Assembly (NCBI GenBank): GCA_024275895.1 | Contig: JAJRYE010000015.1 | Span: 1 to 45,543, forward strand | DNA from: Alphaproteobacteria bacterium | GTDB taxonomy: Bacteria > Pseudomonadota > Alphaproteobacteria > Rhizobiales > BM303 | Length of the DNA stretch: 45,543 nt | Direction: 5' to 3' | Shown: positions 32,913 to 45,100 of the stretch, in pieces | Layout: each line of letters begins with the position of its first letter | Numbering within the stretch: position 1 is the first letter of the stretch | Translations under genes and position numbers: made by a program | The notes under the pieces: model-generated | Seen by the model: the letters and a program-made list of their open reading frames with translations, nothing else | Databases searched by the model: none | What the model was told of the DNA's origin: nothing

Positions 32913-34331
32913 TCACTCGGGCAAATCAGAGGCCCCCGTTAAAAATATATCGATCGCGCGGGCCGCATCGCGCCCTTCCCGGATCGCCCAGACAACGAGC
33001 GACTGGCCACGGCGCATATCACCGGCGGTAAACACTTTTTCCCGCGAGGTCCGGTAGCTGTCCATATCGGCTTTGACGTTACCGCGCTGGTCACGCTCCA
33101 CTTCCAGCTCATCCAGCATCCCCTCATGCACCGGATGCACAAAGCCCATGGCGAGGAGCACCAGATCGGCGTCAATTTCGGCCTCGGTGCCTTCAATCGG
33201 CTGGAATTTCTCATCCACCTTGATCACATGCACCGTGCTGACCTGTCCCGCCTCGCCGCTGAAACCGGTGGTCATGATCGAGTAATAGCTCTCCGCGCCC
33301 TCTTGCTGCGAAGTGGAAATGCGCTGCTTGACGGGCCAGTCCGGCCAGGTGGCGAGCTTGTCTTCCTTTTCCGGCGGCTGCGGCATGATCTCAAGCTGAA
33401 TGACGCGCAGCGCCCCGTGGCGTATGGAAGTACCGATGCAATCCGAGCCGGTATCACCGCCGCCGATCACCACCACATTCTTGAAATTGGCATGGATAAG
33501 CCGTTCATCGCGCAGCTGATCACCATCAAGACGCCGGTTTTGCTGCGAGAGAAAATCCATGGCAAAATGAATACCGTCAAGCTCACGCCCCGGCACGGGC
33601 AGGTCGCGCGGCTGCTCTGCCCCCCCGGCCAGAAGCAGGGCGTCATGCGAGGATTCCAGCTCGGTTGCGGAAACATCCTTGCCGACATGAACGCCGCAAT
33701 GAAAGATAACCCCTTCGGCCTCCATCTGCTTCACACGCCGGTCGATAAGCTTTTTTTCCAGCTTGAAATTGGGGATGCCATAGCGCATCAGCCCGCCCGG
33801 ACGCACGGCTTTTTCATAGACATGCACCTCATGGCCAACCCGCGCCAGTTGCTGCGCCGCGGCAAGCCCTGCCGGACCCGAACCGACAATGGCAACCGTC
33901 TTGCCGGTTTTGGTCTCGCAGATTTGCGGTACAATCTGCCCCTTCTTCCACGCCCGGTCCACAATGGCACATTCCACCGTACGGATGGTGACCGGGATAT
34001 CCTGCAAATTGAGCGTACACGACGCCTCGCATGGTGCCGGGCAAACCCGCCCGGTAAATTCGGGGAAGTTATTGGTTGAGTGCAGATTGCGGCTGGCCTT
34101 GTTCCAGTTGCCGTGAAAGATCAGATCATTCCAGTCCGGAATCTGGTTGTTCACCGGGCAGCCCTGATGGCAGTAGGGAATGCCGCAATCCATGCAGCGC
34201 GCCGCCTGGCGCTCGACATCCGCCTTTTCCAGTGGAATGACAAATTCGGCAAAACTCAGCACCCGGTCCGAAGCGGGCTTGTAAGTGCGCTCCTGCCGGT
34301 CAATTTCCAGAAAACCCGTTACCTTGCCCAT
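32913..34331 (-). CDS. gltD: Glutamate synthase (NADPH), small subunit
   Basis: The 472-residue flavoprotein passes electrons from NADPH through FAD and iron-sulfur clusters to the large subunit. N-terminal cysteine motifs [14 protein letters not shown] and [12 protein letters not shown] bind two 4Fe-4S clusters. [18 protein letters not shown] is the FAD fold, [15 protein letters not shown] the NADPH fold, and [18 protein letters not shown] the closing FAD motif. The length is normal. The ATG shares one base with the gltB stop (TGATG), so the two subunits are translationally coupled. GGAG lies about 7 nt upstream, inside the end of gltB. Confidence 0.96.
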
Positions 34332-37300
34332 CAGGCTCTCCTCTTCATTTTCTTGCCGCTGCCCTGCATCTGCTCGATCTCGAGCAGGGCGCGGCGGTAT
34401 TCAATCGGCATCACCTTCACGAAGCGCGGCAGATAGCTGTCCCAGTTGGCAAGAATTTCCTCCGCCCGCGCCGAACCGGTATAGGCTTTGTGGTTTTCAA
34501 TCAACTGGCGCAGACGCATGGCGTCAAACTCCGACATGTGATGATGCACATCGATCAGACCATGGGCTTCCAGATCGCCCAGTTGGTGGCCATGTCTGGC
34601 CAGCGCCTCTTCCTCCGCCGGAACCGGCTCAAGGTCGACCATGGAAAGATTGCAACGCTGCCTGAAATCACCGGCCTCATCAAGCACATAGGCAATGCCG
34701 CCCGACATGCCGGCGGCAAAGTTGCGCCCGGTCTGGCCGATAACGACCACAACCCCGCCGGTCATATATTCACAGCCATGATCGCCCGTGCCCTCGACAA
34801 CCGCCACCGCGCCGGAATTGCGCACCGCAAAGCGCTCTCCTGCCACGCCGCGGAAATAGCACTCGCCCGTCACCGCGCCGTAAAGCACCGTATTGCCGAC
34901 AATAATACTGTTTTCGGGCACAATTTTCGCCTCATCCGGCGGCCGGATGATGAGACGCCCGCCCGAGAGCCCCTTGCCGACATAGTCATTGGCCTCGCCG
35001 ACCAGTTCAAGAGTCAGGCCATTGGCAGCAAAGGCGCCAAAGCTCTGCCCCGCCGTGCCAGTGAGCTTGACATGAATACAATCGAGCGGCAGGCCCTTAT
35101 AGCCATAACGACGCGCAATCTCGCCCGAGAGCAGCGCGCCGGTGGTCCGGTCCGTATTGCCGATAGCGGTTTCGATACGGACAAAATCCTTGTCCTCAAG
35201 CGCGGGTTTCGCCTTTTCAATCAACATCCGGTCGAGAACATCGGCAATCTTGTGTTCCTGCCGCTCGGTGTTGTAAATGGCATCGCCTTTTACCGGTTCG
35301 GGTTTGAAGAACAGATCAGAAAAATCAAGCCCCTTGCTCTTCCAGTGATCAATCGCCGCATCCTTGTCGAGCAGGTCCGAGCGCCCGACCATCTCGTTGA
35401 TATGGCGAAAACCCATCTGCGCCATCAGGGCGCGCACTTCCTCGGCAACAAAGAAGAAATAATTGATGATATGCTCCGGCGTGCCGGTAAAGCGCTTGCG
35501 CAAGACCGGATCCTGGGTCGCAATGCCGACGGGGCAGGTGTTGAGATGGCATTTGCGCATCATCAGACAGCCCGCCGCAATCAGCGGCGCGGTGGCAAAG
35601 CCAAACTCGTCCGCCCCCAAAAGCGCCCCGATGACCACATCGCGCCCGGTGCGCAAGCCGCCGTCCACCTGCACGCAAATACGCGAACGCAAACGGTTCA
35701 TCACCAGAGTCTGGTGGGTTTCGGCCAGCCCGATCTCCCATGGGGAGCCGGCATGTTTGATCGAGGTCAGCGGACTGGCCCCGGTGCCGCCGTCAAAGCC
35801 CGATATGGTGACATGATCGGCCCGCGCCTTGGAGACCCCCGCCGCCACCGTGCCGACGCCGATCTCGGAGACAAGCTTGACGGAAATATCGGCAAATTCA
35901 CTGGCGTTTTTCAGATCGAAAATCAACTGCGCCAGATCCTCGATGGAATAGATATCGTGATGCGGCGGCGGCGAGATCAACCCGACGCCGGGGGTCGAAT
36001 GGCGTACCTTGGCGATTACCGGATTGACCTTGTGACCGGGAAGCTGCCCGCCCTCACCCGGCTTTGCGCCCTGGGCCATCTTGATCTGGATCATATCGGC
36101 GTTGACCAGATATTCCGTGGTGACACCAAAGCGCCCCGAGGCCACCTGCTTGATGCTTGAGCGCATCAGATCGCCGTTCTTCTTGACCTTGAAGCGGTCC
36201 GGTTCCTCGCCGCCCTCGCCGGTATTGGACTTTGCCCCCATCCGGTTCATGGCAATGGCCAGTGTGGTGTGCGCCTCGCGCGATATGGAACCAAACGACA
36301 TGGCGCCGGTGGCAAAGCGCTTGACAATTTCAGAAGCGGGCATCACCTCTTCGAGGGGCACCGGCTTGCGGCCACAATCTTGCGCTGTTTTGATGCGGAA
36401 CAGCCCGCGCAAATTCATCAATTGCCGGTTCTGCTCATTCACCGCGCGGGCAAACTCATCGTATTTTTCCTGACTGTTGCCGCGTACTGCATGCTGCAAA
36501 TCCGCCACGCTTTTGGGCGACCAGACATGCGCCTCGCCGCGAAAGCGAAACGCGTATTCACCGCCCACATCGAGCATTCTCTGATGTACGAAAGAGCCGC
36601 CAAAGGCGATTTTGTGCCGCTCGGCGGCCTCGGCCGCAATCTCGTCCAGCCCGACGCCGCCAACCTTGGAGCCGGTACCGGTGAAATAGGCGGCAATGAA
36701 ATCCTTGCTCAGCCCCACGGCGTCAAAAATCTGCGCCCCGCAATAGGACTGATAGGTCGAAATGCCCATCTTCGACATCACCTTGAGCATGCCCTTGTTG
36801 AGCGCCTTGATGTAGCGTTTGTAAATTTTCTCCGGCGACATGTTTTCATCAATGCGCCTTGCCGCCTCTTTGAGCGTCTCAAAGGCCAGATAGGGGTTGA
36901 TCGCCTCGGCGCCGTACCCGGCCAGGGTGCAGAACTGATGCGTCTCACGCGCCTCGCCGGTCTCGACCACAATGCCGACCGAAGTGCGCAACCCCTTGCG
37001 GATAAGATGATGATGCACCGCCGAGGTCGCCAGCAGCGAGGGAACCGGGATGCGCTCGGCCCCCGCCAGCCGGTCGGAGAGGATGATGATATTATAGCCG
37101 TCGCGCACCCGCTTTTCCGAGCGCTCGCAAATCCGCGTCACCGCATCCTTCATGCCGCCTGCGCCTTTGAGCGCCGGATAGGTCGCATCAATGGTGATGG
37201 TGTTGAACTCGTTATCGCCCATCTCGCCGATCACCCGCACCTTTTCCAGGTCTTCATTGGTCAGAATCGGCTGGCGCACTTCCAGACGCTTGATATTGGC

Positions 37301-39070
37301 GGTCCCTTCAAGATCAAGCAGATTTGGCCGCGGCCCGATAAACGAGGTCAGGGACATCACCAGCTCTTCGCGGATGGGATCGATTGGCGGGTTGGTCACC
37401 TGGGCGAAGAGTTGCTTGAAATAGGTATGAAGCAGCTTGGGCCGGGACGAAAGCGCCGAAAGCGGCGTATCGGTGCCCATGGAGCCCAAAGCCTCCTGGC
37501 CCGTGCGCGCCATGGGGATCATGAGGAATTTCAAGTCTTCTTGCGAGTAGCCAAACAGTTGCTGGCGCTCCAGCAGGCTGTCTTCAGGATGCGCCACCGC
37601 CGAGCGCACCTGTTTGATATCCTCCAGCTTGATCTGGGTCCTGTCCAGCCAGGCCTGATAATCATTCGACCCGGCCAGATCCGCCTTGATTTCATCATCG
37701 GAAATAATGCGCCCCTGCTCAAGATCGATCAGCAGCATCTTGCCCGGCTGCAAGCGCCATTTGGTGATGATGCGTTCTTCATCCACCGGCAAAACCCCCA
37801 TTTCAGAGGCCAGAATCACATGCCCGTCATCGGTTTCCAGATAGCGCGCCGGGCGCAAACCGTTACGGTCGAGCGTGGCGCCGATCTGGCGGCCATCGGT
37901 AAAGGCCACCGCTGCCGGGCCGTCCCACGGCTCCATCAGAGCAGCGTGATGCTCATAAAAGGCGCGGCGGCTTTCATCCATCAGCGGATTGCCGTCCCAG
38001 GCTTCCGGGATCAGCATCATCATGGCATGGGCCAGCGAGTAACCGCCCTGCACCAGCAATTCCAGCGCATTGTCGAAACAGGCCGAATCCGAGCGCCCTT
38101 CCGGGATGATCGGCCACAGTTTTTCCAGATCCCCGCCCAGAACCTCCGATTTCATCGTGGCGTAGCGCGCCGCCATCCAGTTGATATTGCCGCGCACCGT
38201 GTTGATCTCGCCATTGTGGCAGATCATGCGGAACGGGTGCGCCAGCGACCATGTCGGGAAGGTATTGGTGGAAAAACGCTGATGCACCAGCGCCATGGCC
38301 GAGGCCATATCCTCATCCATGAGATCAAGATAATAGGCCCCCACCTGATCCGCCAGCAGCATGCCCTTGTAGAGCAGGGTACGCGAGGACATGGAACTGA
38401 TATAATAATCCTCAATCCCCGCCATATGTAGCGCCTGCACCCGGGCAAAGGCGGATTTGCGGATCACGAACAGCTTGCGCTCAAAGCAATCCTGATCAGG
38501 GCAGTTATCCCCGCGGCCGATAAAAAGCTGCCGGTGCAAGGGCTCGGTCGGGCGCACCGACTCGCCCAGATCGGAATTGTCCACCGGCACATCGCGCCAG
38601 CCCAGCACCTTCTGGCCTTCCTCCTCAACCAGAATTTCCAGAATTTTTTCAATTGCCTGACGGGTATCATCCTCGCGCGGCATGAAAAGTTGCCCGACGC
38701 CGTAATGCCCTTCTTGCGGTAAATCCACCCCTTGCGCGTCCATCACCTTGCGCAAGAAGGCATCGGGAAGCTGGATCAACAGCCCGGCGCCGTCCCCGGC
38801 CTTGGGGTCGGCCCCCACCGCGCCGCGGTGTTCCAGATTGCGCAGGATGTTCAACCCGTCAAGAATGATCCTGTGGCTTTTTTTATTGTGGATATTGGCG
38901 ATAAAGCCGATACCGCAGGCATCGCGTTCATTGGCCGGATCATAAAGCCCCTGAGTGGCGGGCAGACCTGAAGAGCTGCGTTCGGGCCGGGGTTTTTCCT
39001 CAATTTGAATCCCGCCTGCCGGCCCGTCCGCATTCTTCGCCATTTTCATCTCATCCCACCTTTTCATCAT
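34331..39070 (-). CDS. gltB: Glutamate synthase (NADPH), large subunit
   Basis: The 1579-residue protein has the class II glutamine amidotransferase domain. After a propeptide of about 51 residues comes the nucleophile C52 in [12 protein letters not shown] central domain, the FMN-binding synthase domain ([15 protein letters not shown]) and the 3Fe-4S motif [13 protein letters not shown] follow. The C-terminal glycine-rich beta-helix contains [14 protein letters not shown]. It makes two glutamates from glutamine and 2-oxoglutarate, the GOGAT step of ammonium assimilation. ATG 39070 is kept (GAGGT 8-9 nt upstream). ATGs at 39049 and 39043 are also possible and would only shorten the propeptide. 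It forms an operon with gltD. Confidence 0.96.
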
Positions 39071-39492
39071 CTCAAGTCACCTCAAACCCGCGCTAGAACT
39101 AGCGCACGGTATAAAAAGCCTTCGGCTTTTGCTGGGCTTTTCGTGCCGCATTCGCCGGGCATCCGTATTGCGTCGCATTGGCGGCGCAAACGCCCTCTGG
39201 CAGGACACAAACCGGAGCCTTCATATCCTTGAAAGCCCGGATTCAAAGCTGCTAAGGCGACCCCATATTATTTTTTTATCCGGAGCCCCGTATCGGCGTG
39301 TCTGTCTGACACCGACTCGAATAGGACAACATACTTGTCCTATTGAAACCCCAAAATGACAGATTTCGGCCCGCAAGGCAAGCCCGTCATCACAACACAC
39401 TGACACACACGTGATTTGCTTGTTATCGGCGGATCGGAGCACTTTGGTGAGGCAACATTCCACCAACCAGAACTTGTCAGGAGATATACAAA
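39071..39492. other. Divergent intergenic region between gltB and the bufferin operon
   Basis: This 422-nt stretch contains no supported gene. From left to right: a small inverted repeat GCGCTA-GAAC-TAGCGC (39090-39105); a hairpin AAAAGCC-TTC-GGCTTTT (39114-39130) that on the minus strand would lie in the gltB leader; and a perfect 10-bp inverted repeat (39320-39344), listed separately. The bufA start is preceded by CAGGAG about 9 nt upstream. I could not find a convincing promoter box for bufA or a SigF-like GTAACC...CGAA pair. Confidence 0.5.
39320..39344. promoter_or_regulatory. Candidate operator, perfect 10-bp inverted repeat upstream of bufA
   Basis: AATAGGACAA and TTGTCCTATT are perfect reverse complements around the 5-nt centre CATAC. 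The site is 149 nt before bufA and 250 nt before gltB. Symmetry, length and spacing fit the binding site of a dimeric regulator, for example of the Rrf2 or winged-helix type. There is no T run, so termination is unlikely. The regulator is not in the window. Confidence 0.5.
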
Positions 39493-39786
39493 ATGAACAA
39501 GACCACAACATCCGCCCTCGTATTCGCCGCTGCCATGACGGCCGCCTTGACCATGGCCGCCGCCCCGGAAGCCAAAGCGGCGAAAAAGGGCATGGAAAAA
39601 TGCTTCGGCGTCGCCAAGGCCGGCAAGAACGACTGCAAGGCCGGTCCCGGCACAACCTGTGCCGGCTCCTCAACGGTTGATTATCAGGGCAATGCCTGGA
39701 AGCTCGTCCCCACTGGAACCTGCACCAAGATGAAACGTGGCTCCAGCAGCATGATGGGCTCCCTGAGCGCCACCAAAAACCTCTAA
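39493..39786 (+). CDS. bufA: Bufferin precursor, DUF2282 family (metal-binding RiPP)
   Basis: The 97-residue protein has a Sec signal peptide (residues 1 to about 29, ending EAKA) and a short mature part with four cysteines, C37, C48, C56 and C77, in the characteristic frame [19 protein letters not shown], then [13 protein letters not shown] and LVPTGTC. This is the DUF2282 pattern of bufferins: secreted peptides whose cysteines are modified by an MNIO enzyme and which bind copper in the periplasm. The neighbouring genes bufB, bufC and doxX complete the system. Which cysteines are modified here is not visible. In characterised bufferins the inner cysteines become thiooxazoles, as I recall. 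It is the first gene of the operon, 25 nt before bufB. Confidence 0.9.
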
Positions 39787-39811
39787 ATCCAACAATCTGA
39801 GGATTTAACCC

Positions 39812-40699
39812 ATGACCCTTTCCGTTGCCCCGATAGTGGCTGACGGGAGCGATCCGGTCCCGGCGCAAGCCGGGATCGGCCTCAAGGCGCAGCATTATCT
39901 TGAAATCATCGAAACCCGCCCGCCGCTGGGCTGGTTTGAGGCGCATCCGGAAAATTATATGGGCGCCGGCGGCCCGCCGCATCAGTATTTAACAGCCATT
40001 CGCGAGCTTTATCCTCTTTCTTTGCACGGCGTCGGCATGGCCCTTGGCGGCGATGAGGCGCTGGACAAGAACCATTTAAACCGCTTCCGCGCTCTGGTGG
40101 AGCGCTATGAGCCGGGCCTTGTCTCCGAGCATCTCGCCTGGTGCCGCAGGGGCGGGGTTTATTACAACGATCTGCTGCCCGCGCCCTATACAGAGGCGGT
40201 GCTCGATACCCTCACCGGGCATATCGACCAGATGCAAAGCGCGCTTGGTCGCACCATTCTGGTTGAAAACCCCTCCACCTATGTCACCTTTGACGACAGT
40301 TACATCCCCGAAACCGAGTTTCTCGCCGAGGCGGCAAAACGCACCGGCTGCGGCCTCTTGCTCGATGTCAACAACGTCTATGTCTCTGGCGTCAATCAGG
40401 GCTTTGACCCTTACGCCTATATCGACGCTTTCCCGGTAGAGGCCGTTGGCGAGATTCATCTCGCCGGGCATCTGGAAGAAATCCGGATCCCGGGCGGCCG
40501 CCTGCTGATTGATGATCACGGCAGTGATATCATTGAGGATGTCTGGGCGCTCTACGCCCACGCCCTCGCCCGCACCGGCCCCGTTCCCACCCTGATCGAA
40601 CGTGATAACAATATCCCCGCCCTTGGCGAACTTCTGGCCGAAGCCGCCCGCGCCGATGAGATCATGCTGGGCAGCAAGCAGCAAATGAGAGCCTCATGA
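39812..40699 (+). CDS. bufB: MNIO (DUF692) enzyme, bufferin maturase
   Basis: The 295-residue TIM-barrel protein belongs to the multinuclear non-heme iron-dependent oxidases. All metal-ligand motifs known from MbnB-type enzymes are visible: H72 (SLHGVG), H107 (SEHLAW), E152 (VENPS), D185 and N187 (LDVNN), H216 and H220 (EIHLAGH), D235 and H236 (DDHG) and E263 (LIERDNN). Such enzymes use iron and oxygen to convert cysteines of a precursor peptide. Here the precursor is bufA, immediately upstream. GAGGA precedes the ATG. The end overlaps bufC by ATGA, so the two partners are co-translated, as expected for a stable BufB-BufC complex. Confidence 0.93.
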   Translation: MTLSVAPIVADGSDPVPAQAGIGLKAQHYLEIIETRPPLGWFEAHPENYMGAGGPPHQYLTAIRELYPLSLHGVGMALGGDEALDKNHLNRFRALVERYEPGLVSEHLAWCRRGGVYYNDLLPAPYTEAVLDTLTGHIDQMQSALGRTILVENPSTYVTFDDSYIPETEFLAEAAKRTGCGLLLDVNNVYVSGVNQGFDPYAYIDAFPVEAVGEIHLAGHLEEIRIPGGRLLIDDHGSDIIEDVWALYAHALARTGPVPTLIERDNNIPALGELLAEAARADEIMLGSKQQMRAS

Positions 40700-41487
40700 G
40701 TAAAAACACCGCCCCGCTCGCCGCTTTTGCCGATGCGCTTCTTAAACCCGGCGGACCCGTTCCCGCCGGGATCATCGCCGCCTGTGAGCCGCCGCTCGCA
40801 AGCCGCTTTGACGTTTACCGCAACAATGTTTTCGCCAGCCTGATCGATGCGCTCAAAGACAGCTTTCCGGTGGTCGAAAGACTGCTCGGCGCGTCGTATT
40901 TCCGCGCTCTGGCGCGCGAGTTCATCATTGCCTACCCGCCCGCCTCGCCGGTCCTGCTGGAGTATGGCGCGGGCTTTGCCGCCTTTCTGGAGAATTTCAA
41001 ACCTCTTGAAGACATGCCCTGGCTAGCCGATACCGCCCGGCTGGAGAGGGCCTGGCTGAGCGCTTATCACGCGGCCGATGAAAACCCGCTGGGAACGCAG
41101 GATTTCGCCGCCATTGCGCCGGCGCAAATTCCCCATATCCGCCTCACCCTGCACCCTTCCGCCCGGCTGCTCCGCTCCTTCTGGCCCATCGCCACCATCT
41201 GGCGGGCCAATCAGGACGGGGCAACGCAAGGCGAGATTGATCTTGATGCCGGTGGCGAGGATGTACTCATCGTGCGGCCGCAAAGCGAGGTTGTGCTTCA
41301 CACCCTGCCCGAAGGCTCGCATCCCTTCATAAACGCCCTGATAAACGGCGCCGATCTGACAAGCGCCCATAAAGCCGCCAGCGCGCAAAATGACGCTTTT
41401 GATCTGAGCCTCAACCTGGCCCATCTTATTGCCGGTGGCGCATTTGTTACCATTTCACACCCATCCCGCAAAAGGTCCGAACAATGA
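40696..41487 (+). CDS. bufC: DUF2063 family protein, partner of the MNIO enzyme
   Basis: The 263-residue protein has the DUF2063 N-terminal domain: FADALLKPGG, RFDVYRNNVFASLIDALKDSFPVVERLLG and FRALAREFIIAYPPASPVLLEYG, each quoted in part. A C-terminal domain follows that plays the part of a precursor-recognition partner in MNIO systems. In bufferin and methanobactin-like pathways the DUF692 enzyme works with such a partner to bind the precursor. Both ends overlap neighbours by ATGA (bufB before, doxX after), showing tight translational coupling in the operon. The protein is cytoplasmic, with no signal peptide or membrane helix. Confidence 0.9.
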   Translation: MSKNTAPLAAFADALLKPGGPVPAGIIAACEPPLASRFDVYRNNVFASLIDALKDSFPVVERLLGASYFRALAREFIIAYPPASPVLLEYGAGFAAFLENFKPLEDMPWLADTARLERAWLSAYHAADENPLGTQDFAAIAPAQIPHIRLTLHPSARLLRSFWPIATIWRANQDGATQGEIDLDAGGEDVLIVRPQSEVVLHTLPEGSHPFINALINGADLTSAHKAASAQNDAFDLSLNLAHLIAGGAFVTISHPSRKRSEQ

Positions 41488-41972
41488 GTGATCAAACACG
41501 CCCTGCAAAGCTCTCGGGCGTCAGCCCAAACGCTTTTGTCAATCTGGTCGCATCGCTCATAAAGCTGCTGGAGAAAACGCCGCAATCCTTCATATCCGCA
41601 CTCGCCAGAGTGATCATTGCCCTGGTGTTCTGGAAATCCGCCCTGACCAAAATCGACGGCTTTTCCATCAGGGACGCCACCTTCATGCTGTTTGAATATG
41701 AGTACAACCTGCCCGTCATCGCGCCGCAGACGGCGGCTTACATGGCCACTTTCGCCGAACTTGTTTTCCCGGTGCTGCTTTTCATTGGCCTTGCCTCGCG
41801 TTTCAGCGCCGCCGCCCTGCTGGTCATGACGGCGGTGATCCAGAGCTTTGTCTATCCCGAGGCCTATATCCTGCACGGGTTATGGGCCATCGCATTGCTG
41901 ATTATCATCGCGCGCGGCCCCGGGATTTTCTCCGCTGATTTCCTGATTCGCAAAAAATACATGCCCGAATAG
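41484..41972 (+). CDS. DoxX-family membrane protein of the bufferin operon
   Basis: The 162-residue protein has about four transmembrane helices (near residues 38-58, 85-105, 107-125 and 128-148). It has the DoxX pattern: ISALARVIIALVFWKSALTK, YMATFAELVFPVLLFIGLAS, and RFSAAALLVMTAVIQSFVYP. In bufferin operons a DoxX protein is the usual fourth gene (BufD). Its molecular role is not established. An oxidoreduction or quinone-linked function is an inference. It overlaps bufC by ATGA. The next gene, an S9 peptidase, starts 48 nt later on the same strand. Confidence 0.87.
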   Translation: MSDQTRPAKLSGVSPNAFVNLVASLIKLLEKTPQSFISALARVIIALVFWKSALTKIDGFSIRDATFMLFEYEYNLPVIAPQTAAYMATFAELVFPVLLFIGLASRFSAAALLVMTAVIQSFVYPEAYILHGLWAIALLIIIARGPGIFSADFLIRKKYMPE

Positions 41973-42020: not shown

Positions 42021-43925
42021 ATGCGCAAAACCGCGCCATTTGGAAGCTGGAAATCAATCATCACCGCCGGGCAGGTCGCCAGGGGCGCTATCCGCTACGG
42101 CATGTTGAAAGGCCGCGGTAATGAATTTTATTGGAGCGAGGGCCGCCCCGGGGAAGGGGGCCGTACGGTTATTGTCCACGCAAGCGGCACCGCCCCCCCC
42201 CGCGATATCCTCCCCGCGCCCTATTCCGCCCGCTCCAAAGTGCATGAATATGGCGGTGGTGAATTTTTTCTTGGCCATGAAGGGCTTTTCTTTGCAAACG
42301 CCGATGATCAGGACCTTTATCATCTCGGGCACGATGGCAATATCAAACGCATCACCTGCGCACCGGAATGGCGCTTTGCGGACGGGGTGCATGACCGCGC
42401 CCGCAACCGCCTGATCTGTATCGGGGAAAAAAAAGACCAGACCGGACCGCAAAATTACATCCTCGCCATCGCTCTTGATGGCGAAAATGCCGGAACACCG
42501 CAAATCCTGCTTCAGGGCCATGATTTTTACGCCTGTCCGCGCCTCAACCGGGACGGCACCAAACTGGCGTGGATAGACTGGGACCTTCCCGCCATGCCGT
42601 GGGAATCCTCACGGCTCCGGGTGGGCGCGATGAATGAAGATGGCCGGATGACCCGAAAACACACCGTGGCAGGGGGGGCAAACTGCGCCGCAACCGAACC
42701 GCAATGGGATGATCAGGGCCGGCTTTATTTCATATCCGATCAAAGCGGATGGGGCACAATTCATATATGGGAGGACAATGAAATTACCGCCCTGCCATGG
42801 CAGGGCCATGAATTTGGCCGCCCCTTGTGGGGCCTTGGCGCGTCCTCTTATGCCCTTTGCGATGACGGGACGATCACAGCGCTTTCTTGCAAAAACGGTG
42901 AACTGGTCCCCGCCCTGTTCAGCCATGAATGGGCAAGGCTGAAAACCCCGGCGCGCCAGATCGATACCATCACCGCCGGTCGCAACCGGATTGCCGCCGC
43001 CGCCATAACCGATACCGCGCCGCAGGCCATCTGCATCCTTGATGAAAACCTCACCTCCATAAGCAAACCGGCCCTGCAAATCCCCCGCGCAGCAATCTCC
43101 ATCGGCCAAATCATCAAATTTGCCACCGGCAACGGCCAAAACGCCCACGGCCTGTATTACCCGCCCCGCAACCCGGACTTTGCCGCGCCCGAGGCGGAAA
43201 AGCCGCCCGCAATCCTTCTTGCCCATGGCGGCCCCACCGGCATGGCTGACCGGGGATTAAAACTCAAAACCCAATACTGGACCAGCCGCGGCTTTGCGGT
43301 CTTTGATGTCGATTACCGCGGCTCCACCGGCTATGGCCGCGAATACCGCGACAGCCTCAACGGACAATGGGGCATGGCCGATGCGCAGGATATGGAAAAC
43401 GGTGCCCGGCACCTCATCGTATCCGGCCTTGCCGATCCTGAGCGGCTTCTCATCTCCGGCTCCAGCGCCGGCGGGTTCACCGTCCTTGCCGCCCTTTGCC
43501 GCTCCTCCGTTTTTGCCGCCGGGGCAAGTTATTACGGCATTGGCGATCTGGAAAAACTGCAAGCGCTCACTCATAAATTTGAAAGCGGCTATCTTCACAC
43601 CCTGCTGGGGGATGATGCGGAAGTGTTCGAGCAAAAGTCGCCGCTTTACAATGCCGGTAAAATCCACAGCCCGGTGATCTTCTTTCAGGGCGCGGACGAC
43701 CCGGTTGTCCCCCCGGCCCAATCGCGCGATATGCACAATTCACTCAAAACCCGCGCCATTCCCACCAGCTATATCGAGTTTGAAGGCGAGTCCCACGGTT
43801 TCCGCCGCGCCGACACCATTATCCACGCCCTGAAAAGCGAATACAGCTTTTACGCCCAAATCCTCGGGCTCGAGCCGCAAGAGGATTTACCGCGCATCAA
43901 GATCAATAATTTCACCCGCGATTAA
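42021..43925 (+). CDS. S9-family peptidase (prolyl oligopeptidase / acylaminoacyl-peptidase type)
   Basis: The 634-residue protein has an N-terminal beta-propeller (about residues 20-370) and a C-terminal alpha/beta hydrolase domain. The catalytic triad is readable: S482 in SGSSAGG, D560 in GADDPVVPP and H592 in GESHGF. No signal peptide is visible, so it should act on small peptides in the cytoplasm. GGGGAG lies 5 nt before the ATG. It follows the bufferin operon by 48 nt without a terminator and may be co-transcribed, though it is not a standard bufferin gene. The end overlaps the convergent metZ by 4 bases. Confidence 0.9.
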   Translation: MRKTAPFGSWKSIITAGQVARGAIRYGMLKGRGNEFYWSEGRPGEGGRTVIVHASGTAPPRDILPAPYSARSKVHEYGGGEFFLGHEGLFFANADDQDLYHLGHDGNIKRITCAPEWRFADGVHDRARNRLICIGEKKDQTGPQNYILAIALDGENAGTPQILLQGHDFYACPRLNRDGTKLAWIDWDLPAMPWESSRLRVGAMNEDGRMTRKHTVAGGANCAATEPQWDDQGRLYFISDQSGWGTIHIWEDNEITALPWQGHEFGRPLWGLGASSYALCDDGTITALSCKNGELVPALFSHEWARLKTPARQIDTITAGRNRIAAAAITDTAPQAICILDENLTSISKPALQIPRAAISIGQIIKFATGNGQNAHGLYYPPRNPDFAAPEAEKPPAILLAHGGPTGMADRGLKLKTQYWTSRGFAVFDVDYRGSTGYGREYRDSLNGQWGMADAQDMENGARHLIVSGLADPERLLISGSSAGGFTVLAALCRSSVFAAGASYYGIGDLEKLQALTHKFESGYLHTLLGDDAEVFEQKSPLYNAGKIHSPVIFFQGADDPVVPPAQSRDMHNSLKTRAIPTSYIEFEGESHGFRRADTIIHALKSEYSFYAQILGLEPQEDLPRIKINNFTRD

Positions 43926-45100
43926 ACGCTTCCAAGCGCATGGGCGATATCAGCAGCCAGATCAGCAGGGTCTTCAAGCCCGGCGGAAATCCGCAACATG
44001 CCGCCGCTGATCCCCAGTTTCGCACGCTCTTTCTTGTCCACGCTCTGATGGGTCGTGGTGGCCGGATGGGTAATCAGGCTTTTGGAATCGCCCAGATTAT
44101 TGGAGATCAAAATCAGCTCCAGCGCATTGCTGAAAGCAAAGGCCGCCCGCTTGCCGCCGTTCAGCTCCACCGCCAGCATCGGCCCGCCGCCGGACATCTG
44201 TCTTTTCACAATTTCCGCCTGAGGATGGTTTGCCAGCCCCGGATAGATCACCCGTTTGACCGCGCCGTGCCCGTCAAGCACCTCCGCCATGGCGGCAGCG
44301 TTCTCCTGCATCTGCCGCACCCGCACATCCAGCGTTTCGAGCCCCTTGAGCATCACCCAGGCGTTAAACGGGCTTAAAGAAGGCCCGGTATGCTTGAGGT
44401 AATCATGGCAGGCCTTGGCGATATATTTCTTATCCCCCAGAATGATCCCGCCCAGACAGCGCCCCTGCCCGTCAATATGCTTGGTGGCTGAATAGACAAC
44501 CACATCCGCCCCCAGCTCGAACGGGCGCTGCAACAGCGGCGTGGCAAAGACATTATCCACGATCAGTTTGGCCCCGCCTCCATGGGCGATTTCGGCAACA
44601 GCAGCGATATCAATCACTTCCAGTTTGGGGTTGGTCGGAGTTTCCAGAAACACCAGCTTTGTCCGCAGCCGCATGGCGCTGCGCCATTGCTCAAGATCAA
44701 CCCCGTCAACCAGCGTCACCTTGATGCCGAAACGTGGCATGAGCGTATTCAGGATATAGAGCGATGAGCCAAACAGCGCCCTTGCCGCCACGATATGATC
44801 ACCGCTTTGCAATTGCGAAAACAGCGCCCCGGCCACCGCCGCCATGCCGGTGCCGGTGGCTCGGGCGTCCCCGGCCCCGTCAATAGCCATCATACGCTCT
44901 TCAAACATGCGCACGGTGGGATTGGCAAAGCGTGAATAAACAAAGCCCGGATCATCAGCAGCAAAACGCGCCTCGGCGGCTTCAGCGCTTTGATAGGTAA
45001 AACCGGAATTGAGAAACAGCGCCTCGGAGGTTTCCGCAAAATCCGAACGCACCGTGCCGCCATGCACCGCCAATGTGCGGCTTTTCCAGTTCTTCGCCAT
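43922..45100 (-). CDS. metZ: O-succinylhomoserine sulfhydrylase
   Basis: The 392-residue PLP enzyme of the Cys/Met metabolism family makes homocysteine from O-succinylhomoserine and sulfide. The PLP lysine is K207 in VVYSATKHIDGQGRCLGG. Other family landmarks are YSRFANPTVRMFEERM and LETPTNPKLEVIDI. The GQGRCLGG segment is typical of MetZ as opposed to cystathionine gamma-synthase. An upstream SAM-II riboswitch and terminator show that S-adenosylmethionine controls expression. ATG 45098-45100 follows an AAGGATATG-type purine stretch. Confidence 0.94.
   Translation of the reverse strand: MAKNWKSRTLAVHGGTVRSDFAETSEALFLNSGFTYQSAEAAEARFAADDPGFVYSRFANPTVRMFEERMMAIDGAGDARATGTGMAAVAGALFSQLQSGDHIVAARALFGSSLYILNTLMPRFGIKVTLVDGVDLEQWRSAMRLRTKLVFLETPTNPKLEVIDIAAVAEIAHGGGAKLIVDNVFATPLLQRPFELGADVVVYSATKHIDGQGRCLGGIILGDKKYIAKACHDYLKHTGPSLSPFNAWVMLKGLETLDVRVRQMQENAAAMAEVLDGHGAVKRVIYPGLANHPQAEIVKRQMSGGGPMLAVELNGGKRAAFAFSNALELILISNNLGDSKSLITHPATTTHQSVDKKERAKLGISGGMLRISAGLEDPADLAADIAHALGSV

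Follow-up and report, generated by a model that had tools for sequence, protein, structure and literature searches.

A Buf1-class bufferin operon beside glutamate synthase: a conserved box upstream of bufA and a palindrome that follows gltB

The closest described systems to the locus studied here are the Buf1 bufferin operons, e.g. Caulobacter CCNA_03363-03366 (PMC12452194, PMC8224329), whose gene order is identical to that found in the window, the whole 45,543-nucleotide stretch of alphaproteobacterial DNA that was analysed. Both encode a four-cysteine precursor with a signal peptide, an MNIO enzyme, a DUF2063 protein and a DoxX protein. In Caulobacter, the SigF regulon, which includes the buf operon, is induced by copper (PMC8224329). 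The chemistry and the operon core of the published bufferins (PMC12452194) served as the template for our functional interpretation, and 120 related genomes (121 with that of the window) constituted the comparison set.

Judged by gene content and protein family, positions 39493-41972 are a complete four-gene bufferin operon of the Buf1 class and an ordinary new member of that known class. All four genes lie on the + strand: bufA (39493-39786) codes for a Buf1/DUF2282 bufferin precursor of 97 aa (PF10048, 91.7 bits, 2.7e-26), bufB (39812-40699) for the MNIO (DUF692) maturase (PF05114 MbnB_TglH_ChrH, 351 bits, 4.8e-105), bufC (40696-41487) for the DUF2063 partner (PF09836, 87.9 bits, 5.4e-25) and bufD (41484-41972) for a DoxX membrane protein (PF07681, 56.1 bits, 5.8e-15). 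ATGA overlaps join bufB to bufC and bufC to bufD; between bufA and bufB there is a gap of 25 bp. BufA begins with a Sec-type signal peptide of 29 residues, as judged by eye only, and its four cysteines (Cys 37, 48, 56 and 77) are all kept in 98-100% of 54 BufA sequences. BufB scores above the cut-off of the NCBIfam model MNIO_BufB ('MNIO family bufferin maturase'; 378.5 bits, cut-off 310) and matches PDB 3bww at 1.6e-41, and its ligand-type residues H72, H107, E152, D185, H216, D234, H236 and E263 are invariant among 24 MNIO sequences. The full-length AlphaFold model of BufC (pLDDT 90) matches TglI (8hci_A, E 2.8e-6) and also NGO1945 (3dee, E 3.4e-4), in alignments spanning 227-239 columns. 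The gene-level marks of Buf1 membership are all present, namely a DUF2282 precursor, a BufB-group MNIO, a DUF2063 partner with an RRE and a DoxX gene in the operon. A sequence-only reading had proposed a complete bufferin operon, which the Pfam and NCBIfam families, the conserved cysteines and the invariant ligand-type residues bear out; its account of the reading frames (signal peptide, four cysteines, three genes joined by ATGA overlaps) likewise matches the coordinates and the sequence.

From the published homologous bufferins we infer thiooxazole formation, export and copper binding. BufA would be synthesised with a Sec signal peptide, and in the cytosol BufB, together with its DUF2063 partner BufC, would oxidise the central Cys48 and Cys56 to thiooxazoles. 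The modified BufA would be exported via Sec, a Cys37-Cys77 disulphide would form, and the periplasmic product would bind surplus copper, with BufD as a putative DoxX membrane accessory.

The same bin holds a second block (L003, G000:C10:1-4873), in which a partial bufA is followed by bufBCD, S9 and Hsp20 genes. Its genes share 69-96% identity with those of G025 (family f25) and ~44-61% with those of the window, and its BufB is sister to that of G025 with 100/100 support; a recent paralogue of the window operon is therefore unlikely, and the block is likely to be a foreign contig or the result of horizontal transfer. A different arrangement is seen in L064 (G050), where two bufA genes stand in tandem before bufB.

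The window operon is divergent from gltB, the gene for the glutamate synthase large subunit (34331-39070, - strand), and is followed by an S9-family peptidase gene (42021-43925, + strand; 143 bits, Pfam). Divergent gltB-buf neighbours occur in 15 of the 38 genomes of a first set and in 12 more of a second, i.e. in 27 of 72 genomes bearing BufB. On this evidence the gltBD linkage, which had been put forward as a novelty, is shared synteny and not new here. In 14 genomes, gltB adjoins the S9 gene divergently with no buf between them (G004, G005, G007, G012, G018, G020, G029, G032, G033, G037, G038, G047, G055 and G057; the sequence was read in five of the loci), a synteny that rules out the S9 enzyme as a bufferin protease. 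The peptidase does lie downstream as had been described; it flanks gltB in loci devoid of buf, and belongs to the gltB-S9 neighbourhood and not to the bufferin system. Between S9 and Hsp20, the window carries a metB-like PLP enzyme gene (43922-45100, - strand), and the relatives L173-L175 and L177 have an apparent threonine aldolase gene directly after S9. On the BufB tree, gltB linkage is scattered (11 changes for 14 loci) and NrsF linkage clustered (3 changes for 7 loci). Most simply, gltB-buf-S9-Hsp20 is one inherited block with later losses of members; alternatively, buf may have been inserted between gltB and S9.

A SigF-type box (GTAACC-N14-18-CGAA) was found nowhere in the window, and the window operon has neither of the Caulobacter-type features, a linked NrsF/ECF gene and a GTAACC-N16-CGAA promoter. 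NrsF was not found in the bin of the window (G000) or in the same-genus G001 (96% complete); the former is 87% complete, so that its lack of NrsF is weak evidence alone, and G001 agrees. Over 61 genomes, NrsF scored above the cut-off in 14, in seven of them within ~3 kb of buf; the 15 genomes with gltB linkage in the first set yielded none. The contig scan contributed 21 named loci, mostly from outside the order, and a SigF-like box precedes bufA in 0 of 14 gltB-linked loci, 4 of 7 NrsF-linked loci and 8 of 14 named outside loci. Because both NrsF and the SigF box went undetected in this genus, the regulation of buf there is, by these signals, different from the Caulobacter model.

A candidate bufA operator or promoter element, which we term the buf box, stands 92-70 nt before the bufA ATG (TGACACACACGTGATTTGCTTGT, 39401-39423, + strand). 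Motif discovery by EM on the 250 bp before bufA in 39 loci of the order returned the palindrome TCACG-N4-CGTGA followed by TTT, with a log-likelihood of 192 vs 106-109 for four dinucleotide shuffles. At up to two mismatches, 36 matches were counted before bufA, where the remainder of the loci predicts 3.9, and 26 of the 39 loci carry the box. The 32 hold-out loci come from genomes outside the discovery set, of the same order and partly of the same genera, and are thus not fully independent; they gave 28 matches at up to two mismatches (2.7-3.2 expected) and 14 at up to one (0.1-0.2 expected). The window copy carries two mismatches and is inconspicuous without comparison to relatives, and the same-genus copy is TGACGGCAACGTGATTTGCTTGT. 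No fixed -10 element emerged, as none of the columns that follow TTGATTT is strongly conserved. Judged by its recurrence, TCACG-N4-CGTGA is a bufA-associated element across the order, which the sequence-only reading had missed: the absence of a SigF promoter that it reported was confirmed, and it is the buf box, not the inverted repeat named in that promoter's place, that is associated with bufA.

The inverted repeat itself (39320-39344, no strand assigned) consists of two 10-bp arms and a 5-nt spacer, AATAGGACAA-CATAC-TTGTCCTATT, lies 149 bp upstream of bufA and is, as had been described, perfect. The window has no second copy of it, and shuffles predict 0. Its proposed role as the bufA operator did not withstand comparison. 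A search of 121 genomes of the order with the core ATAGGACA-N7-TGTCCTAT (up to two mismatches) gave at least 75 places, and 59 of the 75 matches listed lie 173-647 bp before gltB (measured to about codon 25). These 59 include every exact match listed (7) and 14 of the 15 listed with a single mismatch. The order-wide form upstream of gltB is ATAGGACAG-N5-CTGTCCTAT, with about one copy per genome (39320-39344 in the window; loci L173-L182). Three stray copies with the same symmetry hint at amino-acid metabolism: that in L163 precedes a gene for a LysE-like exporter, that in L165 precedes one for an aminotransferase-like protein, and that in L164 has a MarR-like gene and a gene for an OmpR-type response regulator as neighbours, all names being given by eye. 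A dedicated bufA operator, which the perfect arms, the short distance to bufA and the want of a SigF-type box there would favour, is highly improbable in view of three observations. Among the genomes searched for BufB, 24 have the palindrome upstream of gltB, with buf elsewhere in 14 and BufB not found in 10; in a same-genus relative (L035) it is separated from bufA by 1.4 kb and from gltB, measured to about codon 25, by 355 bp; and in the order relatives compared, it is missing upstream of bufA orthologues wherever buf is not beside gltB, the very outcome that the sequence-only reading had named as refuting the operator. Because it stays with gltB even where buf is elsewhere or was not found, the palindrome is, by its distribution, a gltB element outside the buf system, with gltB as its likely owner; it would stand beside buf through the inherited gltB-buf-S9 synteny, and a general function as buf operator is ruled out. 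Since no more than 149 bp separate the palindrome from bufA in this genome, it may have a side effect on buf here. Where buf adjoins gltB, the regulator of the palindrome might act on both and so couple copper buffering to nitrogen status. Such shared control would fit the maintenance of the linkage in 27 of 72 genomes, the retention of the palindrome in most gltB-linked genomes and the single intergenic region that serves gltB and buf here; however, a separate buf box stands between the palindrome and bufA, gltB linkage is dispersed across the BufB tree, and the palindrome and bufA are well apart in L035, so that we regard it as quite unlikely.

The buf box, for its part, could be a general promoter or global-regulator site instead of a buf-specific operator. 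The NrsF-linked loci L045, L066 and L071 have it, too, ahead of SigF-type promoters, so that it may belong to a general activator. Against this, the extended element (up to two mismatches) matches just once per genome in G000 and G001, each time ahead of bufA, and the box is roughly ten times less frequent in other parts of the loci; we regard a general site as rather unlikely. In L044, L066, L071, L208 and L216, the TCACG palindrome lies 3-5 nt before a GTAAC element resembling a SigF -35. A factor acting at the TCACG-N4-CGTGA box, rather than SigF-NrsF or the 39320-39344 palindrome, probably governs buf expression. More tentatively, and at somewhat less than even odds, the bufferin operons of the order would be under a buf-dedicated, metal-responsive regulator binding this box, which takes the place of SigF-NrsF where buf is gltB-linked and supplements it where buf is NrsF-linked.

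Taken jointly, a Buf1 bufferin operon with chemistry of the published type, control through the buf box and a palindrome belonging to gltB is the account that we favour, with a probability of about 0.84. What is new here is the conserved regulatory box, the three novelties previously claimed being explained by the gltB neighbourhood. A misleading lead is thus removed, in that the palindrome belongs to glutamate synthase and not to the bufferins and the S9 peptidase drops out of the bufferin system, and a DNA box ahead of bufA, validated on hold-out loci, is offered instead; it suggests that SigF does not control bufferin genes in every case. With a single copy in its genome, the box offers a directly testable route to the bufferin regulator and to the signal that this senses.

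Among other MNIO systems, the captophorins and HvfABC oxazolins (PMC13097082) likewise combine an MNIO with a DUF2063/RRE partner and form thiooxazoles on a cysteine precursor, but their precursors have EGKCG repeats, whereas that of the window is a DUF2282 protein; the window proteins also scored under the cut-offs of the NCBIfam HvfC and HvfX models. BufB shares its MNIO family with the enzymes of TglHI (pearlin) and MbnBC (methanobactin), and the BufC model resembles TglI, although the substrate and product classes of those systems differ from those of the window, where a TglA or MbnA precursor is absent. Unlike the Caulobacter Buf1 operon, which it otherwise mirrors gene for gene, the window operon has no adjacent sigF/nrsF and no GTAACC-N16-CGAA promoter; it bears the TCACG-N4-CGTGA box and is divergent from gltB.
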